This document shows positions 1,082 to 14,502 of a stretch of 24,193 nucleotides of DNA, in pieces. Every line of letters starts with the position of its first letter. Position 1 is the first letter of the stretch. The notes under the pieces are model-generated. The model was not told the origin of the DNA, searched no databases, and was given only the letters and a program-made list of their open reading frames with translations. Origin of the DNA: a virus; IMG/VR virus record IMGVR_UViG_3300017788_000165, positions 1 through 24,193 of that record; one strand, written 5' to 3'. A program made the position numbers and the translations under genes.

Positions 1082-1960
1082 TTAGCGAGTGACGGTCAAG
1101 CGAGCAAGACCACGGGGGTTGTAGGCACCAATGCCGAGGTTCTCAAACACCGAGAAGCCGATGGTGCGAGCCTTCGGGTCGTCAGCGGAGAGAACGGTCA
1201 GCTCGGTGCGGACAGGGATGCGACCAAACATCTCAGGCTCACAGCAGACATACACCGTGCCGACAGGCACGAGACGGCTGGTGATGATCTGAGAACCCCA
1301 AAGAGTCGCCTGAAGACCCGTCTTGAGGAGGGCAGCCTGCGACTCAATGTCGAGGATGTCACGACCGAACTTTCTGATGTCGGCATAATCACGGGCGTTC
1401 ATGAACACGCGGGCTACGCGAAGGTCATGACGCTCGATGAGAGCGAAGGCATCAGCAAGAACGGCTCCGTTGAGGGGAGCGATCACGGGGAGGTCAGCGT
1501 TGGTCTGACCGGGGAGGCTATCAAAGCCCTGAGTAGCCACCGCGTCAAGGATAGCGAATACACGCTCATCCTCAGCAGCCTGAATCTGAGCACGAGCCAA
1601 ATCCTGAGCACGCTCGATCAGATCGAAGCGACGCTCTTTGATCTGAGTCAAAGGAATCTCAGGGTTCGAGGCGATCTCGAAGAGGGGGAAAATCACGCGG
1701 CGGGGCTTGGTGATGGCGAGGATGTTCTGACCCTCCTCACCAACCACATAAGCCGTCACATCGGGGTCTTTGTCATAAATGGGTAAGGCACCATCAGGTA
1801 GCTGCTCCACGAGGAAGGTCTTACGACCGACCGAGGTGTAGTCTCTACGAAGACGGAGGGGCTGAGTCATAGAAGCGGCTAACTTAGCACGACCCTGAGG
1901 GGTCTTGATGTAGTCGCTAATGATCTTTTGCTTGACGGCATTGTCTACGGTATTGCTCAT
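1082..1960 (-). CDS. Major capsid protein, HK97-like (putative)
   Basis: A 292-residue protein that would form the icosahedral shell. What is seen: an N-terminal segment IIDYIK-like followed by TPQGRAKLAASMTQPLR; a long charged helix at about residues 105-143 (ERRFDLIERAQDLARAQIQ) typical of the HK97 spine helix; and a C-terminal stretch with PVR, IGFSVFENLGIGAYN and a final beta-like strand, as in the P-domain of HK97-type capsids. The ribosome binding site is AGGAG, 7 bases before the ATG. The gene lies at the end of the protease - scaffold - decoration series, the usual place for the capsid gene. Codon use is more GC-rich than the unknown genes nearby and it lacks the GGATAA word common elsewhere, fitting high expression. 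The protein is short for a large-phage capsid. Fold assignment is by pattern and context, not by a search. Confidence 0.85.
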   Translation of the reverse strand: MSNTVDNAVKQKIISDYIKTPQGRAKLAASMTQPLRLRRDYTSVGRKTFLVEQLPDGALPIYDKDPDVTAYVVGEEGQNILAITKPRRVIFPLFEIASNPEIPLTQIKERRFDLIERAQDLARAQIQAAEDERVFAILDAVATQGFDSLPGQTNADLPVIAPLNGAVLADAFALIERHDLRVARVFMNARDYADIRKFGRDILDIESQAALLKTGLQATLWGSQIITSRLVPVGTVYVCCEPEMFGRIPVRTELTVLSADDPKARTIGFSVFENLGIGAYNPRGLARLTVTR

Positions 1961-1980: not shown

Positions 1981-2580
1981 TTAGATACGCTGATCGTAGA
2001 CCAACTCATCAGAGTTGGAATCGGGAGCGATGGTACAAATGCCGATGACCGTATCGTCCGTGTGGTCGTGAGCAACATCCACCGAAGTGGTGAGGTAGCC
2101 GTTAGCCGAAGCTACGAGTTCCTCTCCGGGGGCGTAGGCATCAGCGAGGGCACCACCACCAACAATATCACGGCTCTCGTAGAGCTTGTTGCCATAGGCA
2201 CCCTGAGCAGACACATAAGGTCCACGGTTAGAGGCTACCCCAGGCTGGTTCTCGAAAGCGTTACCAACAGCGTTGTTGATGTACACGCCAAGAACACGCT
2301 CGGTGTGAGCACGACCTGCGGCAGCAGTAGGACCACCATGGAACGAGGAACCCTCGTCACCACGGGTAAAGGCGATAGAACCGCTGAGAACACCAAACAC
2401 GGAGGTCAGAAGACCTGCGGCTTGTGTTGCATGGGTACCGCCACCGGCGGCAGGTGGGTTCGTCTGAGTGAAGCTATCTGCGGTAAGCTGCCCGATGGTG
2501 TTACGAACACCAACATGGAGGATACGCAGAGCCGAGCTTGACTCAGTAAAACCACCACTAGCTTGTCCAAGTAGAGCCAT
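1981..2580 (-). CDS. Putative capsid decoration or cement protein
   Basis: A 199-residue protein rich in Gly, Ala, Ser and Thr without long helices, so probably beta-rich. The C-terminal part reads YAPGEELVASANGYLTT and then VIGICTIAPDSNSDELVYD. This arrangement (a 'PGdeL..S.nGyLT' segment followed by 'vGi....p') is what I associate with phage head decoration or structural-cement proteins. It lies between the scaffold-like and capsid genes, where decoration proteins are often found. The ribosome binding site AGGA precedes the ATG by 8 bases, and a 5-bp inverted repeat (CATAG/CTATG) encloses that spacer and includes the start codon. A minor structural or head-fibre role is the main alternative. 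Confidence 0.55.
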   Translation of the reverse strand: MALLGQASGGFTESSSALRILHVGVRNTIGQLTADSFTQTNPPAAGGGTHATQAAGLLTSVFGVLSGSIAFTRGDEGSSFHGGPTAAAGRAHTERVLGVYINNAVGNAFENQPGVASNRGPYVSAQGAYGNKLYESRDIVGGGALADAYAPGEELVASANGYLTTSVDVAHDHTDDTVIGICTIAPDSNSDELVYDQRI

Positions 2581-2725: not shown

Positions 2726-4300
2726 TTAGCTGAAGAACTTGCTCACATCAGGAGCGGTTTCCCACAACTTGGATAGTTCATCAGAAGCGGAAGCCTCACG
2801 GCTGATGTTGCCGAGAGTCTTGACGGAGGCTTGGCGAGAGGGAGCCTTGGGACGATAAGCAGCCTTCTTTGCTTCGGGCTTCTTTTCTTCCTTGGCTTCT
2901 TCTTCTTCCTCTTCATCCTCATCATCCGTCATTTTGACATCATCATCAGATTCTTCGGATTCTTCCTCAGCTTTTTCTTCGGTTTCTTCCTCAGCTTCTT
3001 CTTCGGTTTCTTCCTCAGCGGCTTGGAAGATACGGGCGAGCTTAGGGTCCATAGCTGTAGCCTGAGCCTCTGAAACATCTAAGCCCATGACATCTTCACC
3101 CAAGGCTTCATCAGAAGCCTCAAGTTCAGCCATGAGTTCAGCCATTTCATCAGCCATGAAATCAGCCTTCTTAGCAGAGGCTTTCTCGCCCTTGCTGTAG
3201 AAAGCGGTGGGGCTGTTCTGATCCGCCATGTACTCTGCGAGAGCATAGGCAAGACGATTCAGACGAGGACGGCTTGCAAGGCGAGGGGTAGGCTCACCAG
3301 CAACCTCTTCTTGGTCGGGGTGTGTGTCGATCTGATTTGAGAAATCTTCGACCGTGTAGCCCGTGTTCTGCTGTGTGGCGTTATCCGCCATCTTACGAAC
3401 CTGACGGGCAAGGCGAGCATTAGCAGCCTTGAGCATAGCCAGCTCTTCAGCGAGTAAATCAGCGGCGGGGGTAACACTCGCTCTACGAGCGGAGGTTCTA
3501 CGCTTGGAAGCTGTACGGCTAGCCATGAAAGCCTCTGCCTCTTCCGCGAACGACTCTCCAACTCCCATCGAGATGTCATCAGCATCAAGCATCCCATCCA
3601 TATCGGAATCCATAGCCTCAAACACGCTTGAAGACCCGCCCCACTCCTCACTAGAGATCATGCCGTCCATGTCGAAATCATATTCGTCAAGGAGGGTGTG
3701 ACCCATCATTTCATCAGCCTCAAGATCGTCAGCCTCAAGATCGTCAGCCTCAAGATCGTCAGCCTCAAGATCATCGGCAACAAGTTCATCTTCGGCGTTG
3801 AAGGGGCCGGTGAAGTCGAGACCCTGATCATAGCCTGTGTTGACCTGCACCACATTGTCGGCATTGCGTGATAGAGAGGCAACACGGCTATTGATGGTGT
3901 GGTTGGGCAAGTCCATGAAACGAAGGGCAAGTTCCTCAATCTCAGCCTGAGAAGCGTTCTTGCCAAGGCGAGACTCGGCAATACGGATACACTTAGCCGC
4001 CTTACGCTCCATTGCCAACTTGAGGTTCTCCTTACGGAGGTCTTCGGTCATAGCGTAGTCCTCCACCAAGGAATCGTTAGTGGCGGGATGGTCAGGAGTC
4101 CAACCATACGAAGCGGGGGCGGGACCTGAGCGGTAAGGTCCCTTACGGACACCTTCGCCAAACTCAGCATCAAAACCATAGGCATCCACTTCAGTCTGAG
4201 CGGAAGAAGCGGGGTGTCCAAAGCTATCCCAACCAAGGTTGTCGGTACCAGGAAGGGCAGTAGTAGCCCTGCGATTTAATCTACGACCATAATTAGACAT
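2726..4300 (-). CDS. Acidic scaffold-like head protein with two EF-hand loops
   Basis: A 524-residue, highly acidic protein, probably the capsid scaffold or an internal head protein, judged from its place between protease and capsid genes and its composition. Seen in order: N-terminal FDAEFGEG...GPY block (43-56); helical segment 75-145; four LEADD repeats (about 178-196); EF-hand loop 1 at 208-219 (D208, D210, D212, G213, I215, E219); EF-hand loop 2 at 231-242 (D231, D233, D235, G236, L238, D242); Ser/Arg-rich stretch 261-276; coiled-coil-like 280-305; a Glu-rich tract 428-475; and a basic, then hydrophobic tail ending KLWETAPDVSKFF. The phrase ADN-x-x-Q-x-NTGY occurs twice (147-157 and 305-315), suggesting an internal duplication. 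Ribosome binding site AAAGGA. Scaffold proteins are usually removed by the protease encoded next to them; that is inference here. Confidence 0.65.
   Translation of the reverse strand: MSNYGRRLNRRATTALPGTDNLGWDSFGHPASSAQTEVDAYGFDAEFGEGVRKGPYRSGPAPASYGWTPDHPATNDSLVEDYAMTEDLRKENLKLAMERKAAKCIRIAESRLGKNASQAEIEELALRFMDLPNHTINSRVASLSRNADNVVQVNTGYDQGLDFTGPFNAEDELVADDLEADDLEADDLEADDLEADEMMGHTLLDEYDFDMDGMISSEEWGGSSSVFEAMDSDMDGMLDADDISMGVGESFAEEAEAFMASRTASKRRTSARRASVTPAADLLAEELAMLKAANARLARQVRKMADNATQQNTGYTVEDFSNQIDTHPDQEEVAGEPTPRLASRPRLNRLAYALAEYMADQNSPTAFYSKGEKASAKKADFMADEMAELMAELEASDEALGEDVMGLDVSEAQATAMDPKLARIFQAAEEETEEEAEEETEEKAEEESEESDDDVKMTDDEDEEEEEEAKEEKKPEAKKAAYRPKAPSRQASVKTLGNISREASASDELSKLWETAPDVSKFFS
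3716..3775 (-). repeat. Four tandem 15-bp repeats coding LEADD
   Basis: The unit AGCCTCAAGATCGTC occurs at 3716, 3731, 3746 and 3761, the last with one mismatch. It lies in frame inside the scaffold-like gene, so copy-number change would lengthen or shorten an acidic run by five residues at a time without breaking the gene. Confidence 0.95.
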
Positions 4301-4328: not shown

Positions 4329-5720
4329 TTATCTGCCCTTAGGGTGGAGAGAGAGGAGCTTCGCAAAACGGATAAGTTTTATTTTATCCGCTTCGGAGAT
4401 GTTGTTACCAAACAAGAGGGCAGCTTGTTTTAGATAAGCATCAACACTCTTGAACCTTGAGCTAGACCCAAGTGTCTGTGCCATCTTGTAGATGTGTGCG
4501 GGAATCTTCACACCATAGTGGTTATTGACGAGAGACAGATTTAAGACCGCCTCTTGGATATTTGAGGCTGTCTTAACGCCCGCTTCTAGTGCGTCAAAAT
4601 ACTCCGCCTTCAAGTGGGCGTGACCTTCTTTGATTACGGTGTCGTTTTGAGAAACGGTAGATTCCGATATTGGAGGATTAAGGACAGCTTTTGATTTCTC
4701 TTCTTTAATCTCGTTTTCGAGTTTAGTTCTTAAACGATCAAGGATAGCTGTTTCATAAACGCCCTCAATCTGTTGAAGTAAAGACTTGGGAGTCTCAGCT
4801 GGAGCTGCTTCACCCCCACCATCTTCATCATCATCATCAAAAGGACCTGCTACTTTGGATAACCAAGCATCAGGGATACGATTAAGGATAGTTTCAGAGG
4901 CAGCTTTGGCATGAGGCTTGGGTGCTTCAAGGATATTCCGAGTAACAGCCCCTGTGAATGCTGGTGTGGCTACCCACGAAGCCTCGATGAAAGTGACACC
5001 ACCTGTCTCGCCCATGTCCTCATGCCCACAGAGTTCTGCGACTCTGTGTTTATTGCCGAGGTCATCATAAAACACATTGCCCTTTTCATATTTCACATGG
5101 GGGCAAAACTCAGTTTCATCTGCGGCTACATTTCCACACTTGGTGCAGATAGTAGCTTCTACAGAACAACCCATACTCATGGCGTTCATTTCGCCTTTGA
5201 GTATTTGATTCACCAAGTCTGTGTGTTTCCTGTCGGTGGCAACTAGTATGTCCACATACAAAGATTCACCAATATCTCGAAGAACAGCATCAATAATCCG
5301 ACCCTTAGATAGTTCTTCAACCTGAATATGCTCCAAAAAGTTCTGTGCTCCAATGAAGGTCTTGTATGACTTCTTTAGAACTTCCCTAGACCAACAATCC
5401 AAATTGTTGTTGATGAATTTATCCGTCTCGGAGGAGACTCTCCAATTTGGATACTTGCGATTGATTTTAACACCTGACTCGGTGACGGAACCTGTTTTGG
5501 TGTTAGGTACTACAAGGGCATCTACTGAACACACAATAGTGGAGTGGGTTAAGAGAAACCGATCAGGAGTACATGGCTCACCCAAAATGTCTTGTGCTCT
5601 TTGGATGAGTTCACCCGTTAAATTGCTACGATTGCCGCTCGCCACGCGAACTTTATCCCAACCCTGAAAGTTGAGATGGGGTCTGACAACATTGGCTTTC
5701 GCATATCTTAGAAAAGCCAT
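4329..5720 (-). CDS. Prohead maturation protease with zinc-finger insert and C-terminal extension
   Basis: A 463-residue serine protease predicted to cleave scaffold and other head proteins inside the prohead. The catalytic part resembles the herpesvirus-assemblin-like prohead proteases: His131 in NFLEHIQVEELSKGRI and Ser182 in NAMSMGC are the likely nucleophile pair. Just after the Ser motif is a probable zinc site, C192-x2-C195 with C206/H208 and C231/H233, which is unusual for short phage proteases. GVTFIEASWVATPAFTGAVT (242-261) is typical of the end of this fold. After it come the peptide NRIPDAWLSK (280-289), an Asp-rich linker (295-300) and a helical tail of about 150 residues. Such a tail could act as a fused scaffold-like segment removed by self-cleavage. 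The start ATG is 4 bases past the upstream stop and directly abuts a stem-loop. Confidence 0.8.
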   Translation of the reverse strand: MAFLRYAKANVVRPHLNFQGWDKVRVASGNRSNLTGELIQRAQDILGEPCTPDRFLLTHSTIVCSVDALVVPNTKTGSVTESGVKINRKYPNWRVSSETDKFINNNLDCWSREVLKKSYKTFIGAQNFLEHIQVEELSKGRIIDAVLRDIGESLYVDILVATDRKHTDLVNQILKGEMNAMSMGCSVEATICTKCGNVAADETEFCPHVKYEKGNVFYDDLGNKHRVAELCGHEDMGETGGVTFIEASWVATPAFTGAVTRNILEAPKPHAKAASETILNRIPDAWLSKVAGPFDDDDEDGGGEAAPAETPKSLLQQIEGVYETAILDRLRTKLENEIKEEKSKAVLNPPISESTVSQNDTVIKEGHAHLKAEYFDALEAGVKTASNIQEAVLNLSLVNNHYGVKIPAHIYKMAQTLGSSSRFKSVDAYLKQAALLFGNNISEADKIKLIRFAKLLSLHPKGR

Positions 5721-9416: not shown

Positions 9417-11105
9417 TTAGAAGCGACCCCCATCTTCATCGGCGGGAGGGGTGTATTTCAGTCCCAAGTTTCGGGCAATACGCTCAATAGCATCAGAGTT
9501 CTCTGCTATCTTAGAGCCAGCATCTCCATAAATCCCTCTCAGCACCTCATTGAACTGAGAGTCGTTCAAGGTGAACATATCTCTCTCAAGTTTGGCTTTG
9601 GTGGTTTGGGGATCAATATTTAGCAGCTCTAGGATAACATCTATATCAAGAGAACCCTTTTGATATAGATTGAACAGGGCATCGAAGGTGTCCTGATTGT
9701 CTCGTAATCCGAGGCGTGTAAAACTCAAAGAGGGATGGATAACGACTTCTTCACCGCTATCATCTTCTTCAATGAACCCCATACGCTTGCACATGGGTTT
9801 GAGGATATTTTCCTCCACCATCTCTTGGAGAACCTCACGCATGAGCATATAGCGTGTGTTAATCACCTCAAGATTGATTCTGTCGCCAGAGTAGCTAGAC
9901 TCGCCCGACAAGAGAGACTCTGTAACGCCCAAACCTGCGTACATCTGTCTATCCGTCATATCGTATTCCCCCGACAAGTCCAACAAACGAGAATCAGCAC
10001 CCATTTCTTCCCAACTCACCTGAAAGTTAGCGATGATTGAGTAGTCAGGGTCTTGTAGAGCCAAATCCACTTGATCTCTTAGGGCTTCCACATCTGCTGC
10101 ATCCATATCTTCTGCGTAGACCAAACGGATAGGTGTCATATGGCGAGAAGCGATAGATGTTTGTGCTTGTCTCAACTTATCGCGATACACCAAGATACGG
10201 AGACAGCGTTCAAGGATAGAGTGACCTCTTGGCTCATACTGAGACTTCTTTCGAGCCATGAAATAAACAAAGCTGCCCGCATCAGGATCAGTATTTAGAG
10301 GAATGTTCCGACCATCTCGGATAGCTTCCACTACATCTGAGGGCATTGATTCCACTACCCTCATAGCTGAGGGGTCTTGCATGGTAGCTCGCTCCACTAC
10401 AGCTTTTGTCTTGGAGTCGGGAATAAGCTCCACTATCTTTTCCGTGGTGAAAGGAAAAGACTCCATGTGTACCTGTTCGGGAGGAAGAACACGGATACTT
10501 GTCCAACCCCTGTAGTTCTTCTTTAACCAAGCGTAGGCTCTCTCAAGTGAATCGGATAGTTCCTCCCACTTTTCCACCGCTTCCCCTTCAGCGGTTAACA
10601 CATTCAACTTTTTATGTGTCACGCTTTTGGGCATATCGGGATTGTTATCTTCGCAGAAAACAAAGACCTCGCCCAATAGATTGTACTCATGAAGTATCTC
10701 TATGAGCCTGTGCAGTAGACCCACTCTCTTTGCCCACTTCTCACAAAACCTGAGGGATTCGTAAGCCATCTCCCTATTCTTCGCCTTGGGAAGACCTAAA
10801 CGGATTTTGGATAGTGGCAACTCGGTGTGTAAGTCTACAGCCTGTCCGACAAACGGATCGGTTCGATAAAAGAACCTAAAGTAGTTCCTTTGTTCGTCCT
10901 GAGACTGAGGAAGCTCTAAGAAGTCTGTGGATAACTCAGGCGAGTAGAAGTTCCCGCCACCGCCCATCATGGAGCCACCCGTTGTCATAGCTACCTTTAC
11001 GCGGGATTTCATCTCCGTTGGAGACAACTTCCTTGTACTAGCCTTTGACTTGGGTTTTATTTCGGCTACAGGCGTGCCAAGAACACCATCATCATCTTCG
11101 CTCAT
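9417..11105 (-). CDS. Portal protein
   Basis: A 562-residue protein that would form the dodecameric DNA entry ring at one capsid vertex. Supporting pattern: EQRNYFRFFYRTDPFVGQAVDLHTELPLSKIRL (71-103, given here by its key parts RNYFRFF, TDP and LHTELPLS) matches the N-terminal portal core; LGEVFVF follows; then a run 'YAGLGVTESLLSGESSYSG' and NTRYMLMREVLQEMVEENILKP are the usual clip/crown-side helices that end in 'LxP'. The C-terminal helix region (FDALFNLYQKGSLDIDVILELLNID) is also typical. The length is normal for portals. It lies just downstream of TerL, the standard order. Its start overlaps the preceding small gene by 14 bases and has GAAGGAG as ribosome binding site. Confidence 0.9.
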   Translation of the reverse strand: MSEDDDGVLGTPVAEIKPKSKASTRKLSPTEMKSRVKVAMTTGGSMMGGGGNFYSPELSTDFLELPQSQDEQRNYFRFFYRTDPFVGQAVDLHTELPLSKIRLGLPKAKNREMAYESLRFCEKWAKRVGLLHRLIEILHEYNLLGEVFVFCEDNNPDMPKSVTHKKLNVLTAEGEAVEKWEELSDSLERAYAWLKKNYRGWTSIRVLPPEQVHMESFPFTTEKIVELIPDSKTKAVVERATMQDPSAMRVVESMPSDVVEAIRDGRNIPLNTDPDAGSFVYFMARKKSQYEPRGHSILERCLRILVYRDKLRQAQTSIASRHMTPIRLVYAEDMDAADVEALRDQVDLALQDPDYSIIANFQVSWEEMGADSRLLDLSGEYDMTDRQMYAGLGVTESLLSGESSYSGDRINLEVINTRYMLMREVLQEMVEENILKPMCKRMGFIEEDDSGEEVVIHPSLSFTRLGLRDNQDTFDALFNLYQKGSLDIDVILELLNIDPQTTKAKLERDMFTLNDSQFNEVLRGIYGDAGSKIAENSDAIERIARNLGLKYTPPADEDGGRF

Positions 11106-11388: not shown

Positions 11389-14300
11389 TTATGAGCTGCC
11401 CCCAAAGCGTTTGTTTATTGCGTCTCTTAGGGTTGGTCGAGCAGGTCTTGGTGCAATACGCCGTTCATCACTCCCACCCTTAAAATAAGAACCCTGAGCC
11501 AAGACCTTAGAACCTGCCATCAAAGGATGTCTAGACGATCCGCCTGATAAAGCAAAATGCTTTTGTGTGCCTATATGATTAGACGCTACCCATATCATAC
11601 GCACTAAGGCATCCGACATATCGTCATGTTTACCTGCTACCTGTGGTGCCTCAACGGAAATGATGTTTTTAGAGTGTACCGTAGCCTGTAATTCTAGTAG
11701 TTCCAACAAATAAGGTTCATGCCCATTTATATCAGGGTCAGGCTTATCATAAAGCCTTAGGCGTTTATCCCACATCATATCCTTAAAGTTTTGAAACATT
11801 TGAGAAGTGAGTTGCTTGGTCATGTTCACCGAGACCATTTGCTTCAAGCCTCGCTTCTCTAGAGCCTGTTGAAGGGGTATCCCTACCCATTGGTCAAAGA
11901 TAGCATCTGAAATGTAAAACCTCTTACTCCACCCATGTATCCAATCTGCCACCTCATCAAAGTCCAGCCGTTCTTTATCCTTAAACTTACCCTCCCCTGC
12001 TTTTATTTGATCCACCAAATCTAAGATGATCTTGTCTCCCTCTAAATGACCAATCGCTATTGCACTTGCGTCTCCCACCAAACCCAAGTCTATGCCCATG
12101 TAGTGTGGCTTCCTCGCAGGGGCTGATGTGACAGGTCTTAGCTTAGGATCGACACACTCATACAAGTCTTCCTCTTTCTCCAACCAACCTCGCGTTCTAT
12201 CCGTAAACTCACCTCCATACTCAGTAAAGAATACTGTAGGGTTTTTCAGATAGTGTTTTTCAAACTCGCTAGCGGGAACCGTGGGATTAACTTCCCATGT
12301 TGGTGCCTGTACAGCTAAGATGTTATCCGATGCAGCACCTCCCTGCATACCTATTTGAAAGAGATTGTAGAAAAGACCCTGTTTGCCTAAGGGTGAAGAA
12401 ATAAGGATAACCCGACCTTCCACTTCCCCAATTGGTTTGGTGGGATTTATGGGGTCTTTTGGAGAATAAGCGGATGTTGAAGGAACAACTGCGTTGTAAA
12501 CTTCTTCTGCCCCTGATTGCCCTTTATCCGTAAAGTGTGCCACCTCGTCCAAGATTACACAGATGTTACCTGCACCACGGAGCCCCTTAGCTACGCATGA
12601 TCTAAAAGTCACTTTAAGTGTGGCTTTAGCCGATGGGTCATCTAGGTATCTCCCATACTTATCCACATCCGCAGGTGTTTGGAAACGGGCATAACTTAAA
12701 GTGTTATTTGCCGTATAGGGACCGAAGAAAGAACAATTGCGATAGTGTCCCGATACCTCCTGATACAATAAACCCGCCTGATCCTTATCCGTGGCTACGG
12801 AAATAATCTGTATGTTATTCGAGGCAGGTAGCCCATAGTATTTCTGAGGGTCGCCTTTTTTGATGAGCTTGTATGTTTCATAAGCTGCAATACAAGCTGA
12901 GATGGTCGTATTGTGGTTTGTAAAACCATTTCCGATAAACATCGAACCTTCAGGAACATTTAGATCATATACCTCACATTCACCCTCTGTAACGGATTGA
13001 ACAGGATCAAAAAAGTAATCTAAATCCAAAAGGCTGTTGATCTTGGCTCGCACATAGCTCGGAGTATCCTTTTCCTCTAGTATCCGACCTAGCTCTAATT
13101 GGCTGACCTTTTTATTCCCATTACAAAAAATCTTCCTTAGTGAAAGATGCTGTTTTAGAAAGGGGAGCAAATAAGGAACTGCGTCTATGGGATGCGGTGA
13201 CCGATAAGACAGATTCTCAAATTGTTTATCCATCATGGATTTTTTACGCTGAGTTAGGAATCCTATCTCGTTCTTGAACTTGAGCTTAGAGGCTGTTCCC
13301 TTTACTCTAACAACCCACTCAGTCTCTCTAGATACTGATGTGTTGGTCACTATCCCAAAATTTAAGAGCAATGCTTGTACATCATACGCTAGTTGCTTTG
13401 AGCTAGTGGAAAAGCATACGCTGTTCCCTGTGGCAGAACCATCAGTTTCAAAAAGACCCCTCAGATATGCCGCGACTACGCTCTTTGGAGAACGCATAAT
13501 AGTAAATGGAACCCTCTTATCATAGGGGGTCGCTTTAATACTCCACCCTATTTTATCCATGAAAGAGCGGACCACCTTCCCATAAACATAGACATCACCT
13601 ACATCTGTGCCTCTCTTGTCCACAACATAAGACGCTTTTCCGAAAATAGCTTTCGCCTTATCCAAAAAGATATCTTTAAACTCAGGGTCAGCGGTAGTAA
13701 CTCTTAGGGCTCTCTTGTTTGTCCAATTCCCATCCCCTGAAACTATCCCAAGTAGCTCGCCCCACTCCTCGGTTAAGAAGTCGGGCATCCCCACAAAAGG
13801 GGAACTTTGGTAGGGTCTAAGGTCTACATACTCTTTCGCCCACAAGTTACTGCTTCGGTTAATACAAGCCAAGTCCCCCGCTTTGACATCCCCTAAGTAC
13901 TTCCAAACAACTTCACAATCAGGTGTAAGAACTTTGATCCTGTGGTTATCCGTCCCTTCGATGAAGTATCCGCTTTCTGTCATAACGGCTTTGGTGGGTT
14001 TAACTCCACCTTTGTAAAAGAAGGCTGTTCTCCGAACATCTCCCATCTCTTGTGCCACCCGTACAGATAATGGCTGATACTCCATCCCATTATCCGTAAT
14101 GTCCCCAAGAGAAGATATGGGGACAATACCCATATCTGTGGGGATGAGGGTATCTCCCCTAACGCATTTGCCTGATCTACGCCCAATGGATAAGATCATT
14201 TCTCGTCTTTGTTTGCCGGGGATGACTTCACCGATATTGCATCGTCCCTCTTCAAATAGGATTTTCAGATATTCCTTTTCCGTCACATGGCGAGCATTTT

Positions 14301-14502
14301 GCCTTCTCCAATCCGTGATCGTAAACCTCTCAGTATCATCTAGCTCAAGCCCATAGTGAGCCTTTAGGATAACCTTCTGAACAGGGAACAGGGTCATTTT
14401 CAGACCCCAAGGAGCTTCTACAAACTCAATAATATCTGCATTGTGTTCTGATTGCTTCCCTGCTTTTGCACTTGCCGCTATAGCGACCGAAGATAAACTC
14501 AT
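11389..14502 (-). CDS. Terminase large subunit (TerL) interrupted by an intein
   Basis: The DNA-packaging motor: an N-terminal ATPase that pumps DNA through the portal and a C-terminal nuclease that cuts the concatemer. The 1037-residue precursor gives a 618-residue TerL after removal of residues 113-531. ATPase: Walker A is split, SIGRRSGK (105-112) before and TT (532-533) after the intein; Walker B ICVILDE (647-653). Nuclease (RNase H-like): Asp805 in MGIDLG, Asp866/Asp870 in ISDAIFD, and Asp960/961/964 in KHDDMSDAL. Without splicing the ATPase P-loop is broken, so activity should require splicing. The ATG overlaps the upstream stop by four bases (ATGA). Followed 39 bases later by the next start. 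The assignment rests on motifs and on the portal gene next door. Confidence 0.92.
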   Translation of the reverse strand: MSLSSVAIAASAKAGKQSEHNADIIEFVEAPWGLKMTLFPVQKVILKAHYGLELDDTERFTITDWRRQNARHVTEKEYLKILFEEGRCNIGEVIPGKQRREMILSIGRRSGKCVRGDTLIPTDMGIVPISSLGDITDNGMEYQPLSVRVAQEMGDVRRTAFFYKGGVKPTKAVMTESGYFIEGTDNHRIKVLTPDCEVVWKYLGDVKAGDLACINRSSNLWAKEYVDLRPYQSSPFVGMPDFLTEEWGELLGIVSGDGNWTNKRALRVTTADPEFKDIFLDKAKAIFGKASYVVDKRGTDVGDVYVYGKVVRSFMDKIGWSIKATPYDKRVPFTIMRSPKSVVAAYLRGLFETDGSATGNSVCFSTSSKQLAYDVQALLLNFGIVTNTSVSRETEWVVRVKGTASKLKFKNEIGFLTQRKKSMMDKQFENLSYRSPHPIDAVPYLLPFLKQHLSLRKIFCNGNKKVSQLELGRILEEKDTPSYVRAKINSLLDLDYFFDPVQSVTEGECEVYDLNVPEGSMFIGNGFTNHNTTISACIAAYETYKLIKKGDPQKYYGLPASNNIQIISVATDKDQAGLLYQEVSGHYRNCSFFGPYTANNTLSYARFQTPADVDKYGRYLDDPSAKATLKVTFRSCVAKGLRGAGNICVILDEVAHFTDKGQSGAEEVYNAVVPSTSAYSPKDPINPTKPIGEVEGRVILISSPLGKQGLFYNLFQIGMQGGAASDNILAVQAPTWEVNPTVPASEFEKHYLKNPTVFFTEYGGEFTDRTRGWLEKEEDLYECVDPKLRPVTSAPARKPHYMGIDLGLVGDASAIAIGHLEGDKIILDLVDQIKAGEGKFKDKERLDFDEVADWIHGWSKRFYISDAIFDQWVGIPLQQALEKRGLKQMVSVNMTKQLTSQMFQNFKDMMWDKRLRLYDKPDPDINGHEPYLLELLELQATVHSKNIISVEAPQVAGKHDDMSDALVRMIWVASNHIGTQKHFALSGGSSRHPLMAGSKVLAQGSYFKGGSDERRIAPRPARPTLRDAINKRFGGSS
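12910..14166 (-). mobile_element. Intein with LAGLIDADG homing endonuclease inside the TerL Walker A motif
   Basis: Codes for precursor residues 113-531 (419 residues). Splicing blocks: N-terminal Cys113 in CVRGDTLIPTDMGIVPISSLGD (key part CVRGDTLI); block B GTDNHRIKV with Thr184 and His187; C-terminal block VYDLNVPEGS and NGFTNHN, with penultimate His530, terminal Asn531 and Thr532 as the +1 residue. Endonuclease: two LAGLIDADG-type motifs, LLGIVSGDG (250-258) and YLRGLFETDG (346-355), with acidic residues in both, so homing may still be possible. The insertion lies between the Lys and Thr of the P-loop, the most conserved site of the ATPase. The block F position usually holding His or Phe before the asparagine block reads GSMF, a mild departure. 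Confidence 0.93.

Follow-up and report, generated by a model that had tools for sequence, protein, structure and literature searches.

Eukaryotic signalling has the EF-hand as its standard calcium module, which bacterial proteins can contain too. In the lobes of calmodulin and troponin C, canonical 12-residue loops are assembled into helix-loop-helix pairs; in dockerins, a pair of calcium loops follows the D-x-D-x-D-G pattern, and position 12 is frequently Asp. Bacterial lanmodulin is a periplasmic protein with four loops in compact tandem arrangement, in which Asp at loop position 9 is a further feature. PMC9260416 gives Pro at loop position 2 as the lanmodulin hallmark. PMC4022735 describes the loop-F layout of dockerin sites and a calcium-binding EF-hand-type loop within a phage protein, the lysin LysGH15. 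There, a single loop and one helix belong to the CHAP domain, and this lysis enzyme has no relation, in protein or in role, to the protein described here. For phage TP-84, the putative structural proteins were screened for the EF-hand signature by the authors and none was detected (PMC5889276). Our own literature search, which reached few subscription papers, did not find any EF-hand in a scaffold or core protein of tailed phages.

In tailed phages, the scaffold gene is usually located between the protease and the capsid genes. The window, i.e. the whole stretch of viral DNA analysed here (24,193 nucleotides, IMG/VR record IMGVR_UViG_3300017788_000165), carries on its minus strand the genes for the portal, two proteins without assigned function, the protease, a scaffold-like ORF, a small head protein and the capsid, in this order:

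9417..11105 (-), portal protein (phrog_16240, E=2.9e-34)
4329..5720 (-), prohead (head maturation) protease (phrog_18299, E=2.9e-17; homologues found)
2726..4300 (-), scaffold-like ORF of 524 aa with a net acidic charge, predicted to be disordered or helical for the most part
1981..2580 (-), small conserved head protein between the scaffold and capsid genes, with a putative decoration-like role suggested by its position
1082..1960 (-), major capsid protein (phrog_2522, E=1.5e-50)

The ORF 2726-4300 lies between the protease and the major capsid protein, which is the scaffold/core position, and this position ahead of the capsid gene was constant among the relatives. No named scaffold family could be attributed to the ORF, its best PHROG match (E=0.029) being to a function-unknown PHROG. 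As scaffold sequences change rapidly and this lineage may be absent from the libraries, a missing match lowers the family claim and not the role claim. A putative scaffold role was assigned because of the position, the acidic and helical composition and the gene order in the cultured Tunturiibacter phage Tunturi_5, where a protease, a 528-residue acidic hypothetical protein with no Pfam match, a small protein and the capsid follow each other in the identical order. The position and the acidic/helical make-up are shared with scaffold/core proteins of tailed phages such as the T4 core, and a conserved C-terminal segment may be a further likeness. The conserved elements of the scaffold-like protein are:

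3905..4012 (-), N-terminal helical segment MERKAAKCIRIAESRLG...FMDLP
3080..3094 (-), DVMGL, the D-x-M-G-L motif conserved across the scaffold-like family
2729..2779 (-), C-terminal segment ELSKLWETAPDVSKFFS, a candidate coat-binding segment

In this C-terminal segment, the predicted helix 502-514 is of low confidence (pLDDT 53-55). The N-terminal HPA motifs, the helical segment, D-x-M-G-L and a C-terminal ELSKLWESAPDVSKFFG-like segment are common to the members with and without the EF-hand pair, and between these conserved ends stands a fast-changing acidic middle which contains the EF pair, acidic repeats or a coiled coil. The scaffold N-terminus (window about 4079-4225) and its relatives also display repeated PGY...HPA segments, HPA being found 109 times in 52 proteins for 4.2 expected; these segments may serve as a peptide to which another head protein binds. 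In the neighbouring protease (4329-5720, minus strand), a zinc-ribbon-like cysteine motif was noticed at residues about 190-208, under the Pfam cut-off (Zn_Ribbon_1, E=0.012).

The acidic middle of the window protein is organised as follows:

3710..3778 (-), acidic tandem repeat ADDLEADDLEADDLEADDLEADE, residues 175-197, on the N-terminal side only; at the DNA level a 15-bp repeat, 3.9 copies at 3714-3772
3680..3712 (-), helix predicted at residues 197-207, leading into loop 1 (AlphaFold2)
3644..3679 (-), EF-hand loop 1 DFDMDGMISSEE, residues 208-219 (translation, Pfam, shuffles)
3611..3643 (-), linker WGGSSSVFEAM between the loops, with W/F, G and F nearly invariant, containing a predicted helix 224-230
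3575..3610 (-), EF-hand loop 2 DSDMDGMLDADD, residues 231-242 (translation, Pfam, shuffles)
3557..3583 (-), helix predicted at residues 240-248, leading out of loop 2 (AlphaFold2)
3476..3514 (-), basic stretch TASKRRTSARRAS on the C-terminal side of the EF pair, containing K/R-x-A-S motifs as candidate protease sites

The original prediction of paired EF-hand loops at residues 208-219 and 231-242 of a phage scaffold-like protein is in agreement with the translation, which puts the loop starts 23 residues apart, and with the position of the gene in the head-assembly cluster: the pair is genuine. Both loops are canonical, with oxygen ligands at positions 1, 3, 5 and 12, Gly at position 6 and a hydrophobic residue at position 8, loop 2 ending in Asp rather than Glu. 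Pfam EF-hand_5 recognised two stretches in the window protein (E=1.4e-6, 28.0 bits for a cut-off of 25.9). The range first proposed (3575-3677) places both loops but omits two bases of loop 1, and the LEADD repeats thought to flank the pair were present on the N-terminal side (residues 175-197) but not on the C-terminal one, which is basic.

The structure of the EF region, whose prediction had been suggested as a check, was modelled by AlphaFold2; the alignments given to AlphaFold2 and Pfam comprised 32, 32 and 40 chosen members. For the whole protein (32 proteins aligned) the mean pLDDT was 58, with blocks at 81-89 over residues 201-240 and values of 90-95 over residues 91-140, which correspond to the conserved N-terminal helices. 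A fragment of 63 residues (40 segments) reached 89-92 over the loops. In the fragment model, a helix, a loop, short helices, a second loop and a helix succeed each other with bridge residues in both loops, so that a helix-loop-helix pair whose loops are joined by a short beta bridge is confidently predicted. Foldseek with the fragment model gave no match at E<=0.001, and its 50 best-ranked matches were, judging by their titles, EF-hand proteins; weak E-values can be expected for 63 residues. Comparison by VIA-align yielded Z values up to 8.6 with EF-hand lobes, Z near 8 being a level that can reflect merely a common arrangement. In a viral structure library, 23 weak matches were obtained, none at E<=0.001, and several of them were giant-virus EF-hand proteins.

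Conservation of the loops was followed in 40 aligned segments that scored above 30 bits against a profile derived from 34 pattern-chosen segments. F38 and D42 were invariant, and D19, D21, W31, G33, D44, D46 and G47 were kept in at least 90% of the segments. These positions are D1 and D3 of loop 1, the W, G and F of the linker, and D1, D3, D5 and G6 of loop 2. The degenerate acidic positions by which homologues might have betrayed a random acidic tract were thus not encountered as a rule. One loop was degenerate in 6 of the 40 copies: loop 1 was lost or degenerate in L238, L258, L288, L260 and L268, whereas in L013 it is loop 2 that is affected, with Lys at position 3. The linker lies outside the search pattern behind the profile, and its aromatic positions (W/F and F) were the most conserved ones besides the ligands. 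In the table of the 34 segments themselves, the ligand positions were fixed by the search pattern and their invariance is partly due to selection; the DADEDD repeat segments L069 and L070 were left out of this table. At the codon level, 163 segment pairs, which are non-independent and give a contrast rather than a test, revealed 0.15 amino-acid changes per pair-site at ligand codons versus 0.80 elsewhere in the module, about five times fewer, while silent changes amounted to 0.20 and 0.28 per pair-site, respectively. The median dN/dS of 0.51 was set aside, since among the GC-rich relatives the silent changes seem compressed, and only the contrast between ligand and other codons was used.

Among solved structures, the best sequence matches of the window segment were the lanmodulins 8fns and 6mi5 (E=4.5e-7 and 6.1e-7, whole sequence). 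Their tandem loops are 24 residues apart in the alignment, for 23 in the window protein, and the fragment model superposes on 8fns with a TM-score of 0.77 on model length, an rmsd of 1.9 and 30% identity. The phage pair has the compact layout known from bacterial lanmodulin. The phage proteins differ from lanmodulin by having one pair, inside a scaffold-like protein, and by their loop residues: Pro2 was present in neither loop of the 34 aligned phage pairs, and Asp9 in 6/34 (loop 1) and 5/34 (loop 2). Loop 2 of the window protein has Asp9, but with Ser at position 2. Because the hallmark Pro2 is absent from the 34 pairs and Asp9 uncommon in them, lanmodulin-like lanthanide binding was rejected and a lanthanide role is not suggested. 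The lobes of calmodulin and troponin C gave structure Z values of about 7.5-8; the middle helices of the phage pair are, in contrast, very short, and the spacing is indeed shorter than in calmodulin, where the loops are 36 residues apart in the alignment. The proposed proximity to dockerin-like pairs did not hold. The dockerin family was absent among the Pfam matches at E<=1 for the window protein, helices are predicted on entry to and exit from the pair, in contrast with the loop-F layout of dockerin sites, and the best solved match is lanmodulin; dockerin identity was therefore rejected.

The presence of the module was examined in relatives, 290 of the loci used coming from five viral-contig scans (protease, scaffold and three capsid queries). 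Several relatives are located on contigs of 290-620 kb and a further one in the 485-kb phage record LR745208.1. At the scaffold-candidate step, 42 of 292 loci gave no candidate. The 201 loci in which protease and capsid were both present reduce to 112 distinct intervals, in which the EF pair was counted by a six-frame profile search; two MAG loci, Tunturi_5 and other later records do not enter these counts, and the capsid relatives taken were the best 80 of 515, of 124 and of 501. Within this sample (best 80 per capsid scan), the pair was found in 39 of the 77 distinct intervals whose capsid is at least 85% identical to that of the window, and in 0/35 of those below 85%. After collapsing similar intervals, 31 of the 62 clusters of the first group, from the same best 80 per scan, carry it. 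All EF-pair matches in the counted intervals scored at least 40 bits, and the pair occupied the same place in every EF-positive protease-to-capsid interval. The pair was recognisable in proteins that align poorly, such as L228 with 28% identity to the window protein, and in the positional scaffolds L231, L251 and L256, which did not come up among the BLAST matches to the window protein. In 32 EF-positive proteins, Pfam detected EF-hand_6 in 26, EF-hand_1 in 23 and EF-hand_5 in 22; for 32 EF-negative relatives seven Pfam families were listed, none of them EF-hand. A tblastn search for the module in isolated-phage records, with the low-complexity filter on, gave no match at E<=1 for the window segment or at E<=0.1 for the L279 segment, and none of the 40 module segments matched PHROGs at E<=0.01.

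Other features were seen in these relatives. The phage of L010, whose scaffold has no EF pair, codes for a separate 232-aa protein with several EF-hands (L298:1898-2596, minus strand, same record; EF-hand_5 E=2.1e-14) beside a peptidase C39-like gene. The EF-positive scaffolds L225, L228, L231, L248, L253 and L256 have a two-cysteine segment like GCEKLPEG.RDNCEKK at varying places, which behaves as if it were a movable module. Two MAG contigs, one of them titled Actinomycetota, bear close capsid genes; no host was assigned from them because the binning of phage contigs is unreliable.

The EF module should be regarded as accessory, an insert carried by a scaffold-like protein that is itself conserved, because at least six changes of state are found on the protease tree (see below) and because many relatives have acidic repeats or a coiled coil instead. 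As 38 of the 77 intervals are devoid of the module and 6 of the 40 copies have a degenerate loop, these phages cannot strictly depend on metal bound at both sites. The original interpretation is partly supported: the genuine pair at the scaffold position is upheld, and the proposed calcium control of folding, assembly or release is a hypothesis. We give about an even chance to the following reading: the ORF 2726-4300 would code for the protein that forms the prohead core, or internal scaffold, in a huge tailed phage, and in this protein residues about 197-248 form a compact, metal-folded EF pair in a disordered acidic middle. Each intact loop likely binds Ca2+ or Mg2+, on the grounds of the EF-hand family and the canonical ligands. 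Metal binding would fold residues about 197-248 into a small rigid knot in the disordered chain, this knot might help the scaffold chains to pack or to bind a partner in the prohead core, the metal might offset the dense acidic charge, and the module would be lost when the protease destroys the core. The free Ca2+ of the bacterial cytoplasm being low, the sites may hold Mg2+ or stay empty during assembly. As far as the literature searched shows, the conserved pair would be the first calcium-binding domain in a phage scaffold. The module is a small soluble piece suited to direct tests of metal control in head assembly, and phages that naturally possess or lack it can readily be compared.

Alternatively, the pair could be a protein-docking module which, like a calmodulin lobe, clasps a helix belonging to one of several candidate partners (the capsid, the portal, the protease or a host protein), the metal being a structural cofactor only. 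The linker aromatics are conserved as residues in a buried core or on a binding face should be, and the six copies with one degenerate loop keep the rest of the module. These aromatics may, however, simply form the hydrophobic core of the pair, and the relatives without the module differ little in their capsid protein and have a related protease. We consider such docking unlikely, while still a serious candidate.

It is also conceivable that the prohead protease excises the module and that the acidic EF peptide stays in the head, where it would be calcium-loaded after cell exit and act in the virion or in ejection. K/R-x-A-S/N is a candidate site of the prohead protease, suggested by an enrichment of about 5.6-fold in 52 scaffolds (582 versus 104 in shuffles) and by the presence of R-x-A-S at residues 25-28 in most of the protease N-termini examined. 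Should the protease cut at this motif, the EF pair in the window protein would lie within one acidic fragment, since no K/R-x-A-S/N occurs between residues 139 and 262. Acidic core peptides are retained in T4 heads, a precedent of which the accessible part of the T4 review PMC3012670 makes no mention, and the motif itself is a statistical candidate only. We hold a retained peptide to be distinctly unlikely.

The scaffold EF pairs could further sense Ca2+ or the Ca2+/Mg2+ ratio and switch the core between an assembly-competent and a protease-clearable state, calcium then timing maturation. If true, this would amount to metal-gated head building in huge phages, with prohead maturation timed by calcium; we see it as a very unlikely proposal. 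Release of the scaffold by extracellular calcium is unlikely, because in tailed-phage assembly scaffold removal precedes DNA packaging and lysis.

The distribution of the module bears on whether it is a neutral passenger, derived from a bacterial EF-hand protein and kept without any metal role. On a quick protease tree with several long branches (62 rows, 28 skipped), EF presence required 8 changes, 6 of which are forced by well-supported branches, and such patchiness would suit a passenger. The presence is nevertheless clustered, shuffled labels requiring about 21 changes and none of 500 shuffles being as low as 8, and the ligand positions and the spacing are constrained across diverged phages, which makes a passenger highly improbable. 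EF-positive members stand on either side of the deepest drawn split of the tree. The distribution fits an old module lost repeatedly, and gains by exchange may also have taken place.

Finally, the region around the loops is 37% acidic, so that a chance match had to be excluded. The window protein was shuffled in 40-residue blocks, which preserves acidic tracts and local composition, and a pair at spacing 23 arose in 4 of 20,000 shuffles. In a set of 75 complete proteins from the scaffold position (capsid identity at least 85%), 34 have a pair at spacing 23, for a shuffled mean of 0.04, and the number was also 34 when any spacing of 18-45 was allowed. Although L069 and L070 carry DADEDDIMAMMD repeats that fit the loose loop pattern too, the loops as a chance product of an acidic low-complexity tract are scarcely credible and were rejected in view of these shuffles, the positional conservation and the ligand-codon contrast, the relatives retaining the loops, their spacing and the W-x-G...F linker in alignable form while the flanking acidic repeats have diverged past alignment.

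Outside the head genes proper, a 1037-aa ORF (11389-14502, minus strand) matched LAGLIDADG_3 (E=2.1e-20) and an intein-splicing family just below its cut-off (E=1.1e-8); by these matches it is a phage gene containing an intein with a homing endonuclease. In two relatives, the prohead protease itself is interrupted by Hint/LAGLIDADG intein domains (L297:1742-4675 and L040:6001-8724, both on the plus strand).
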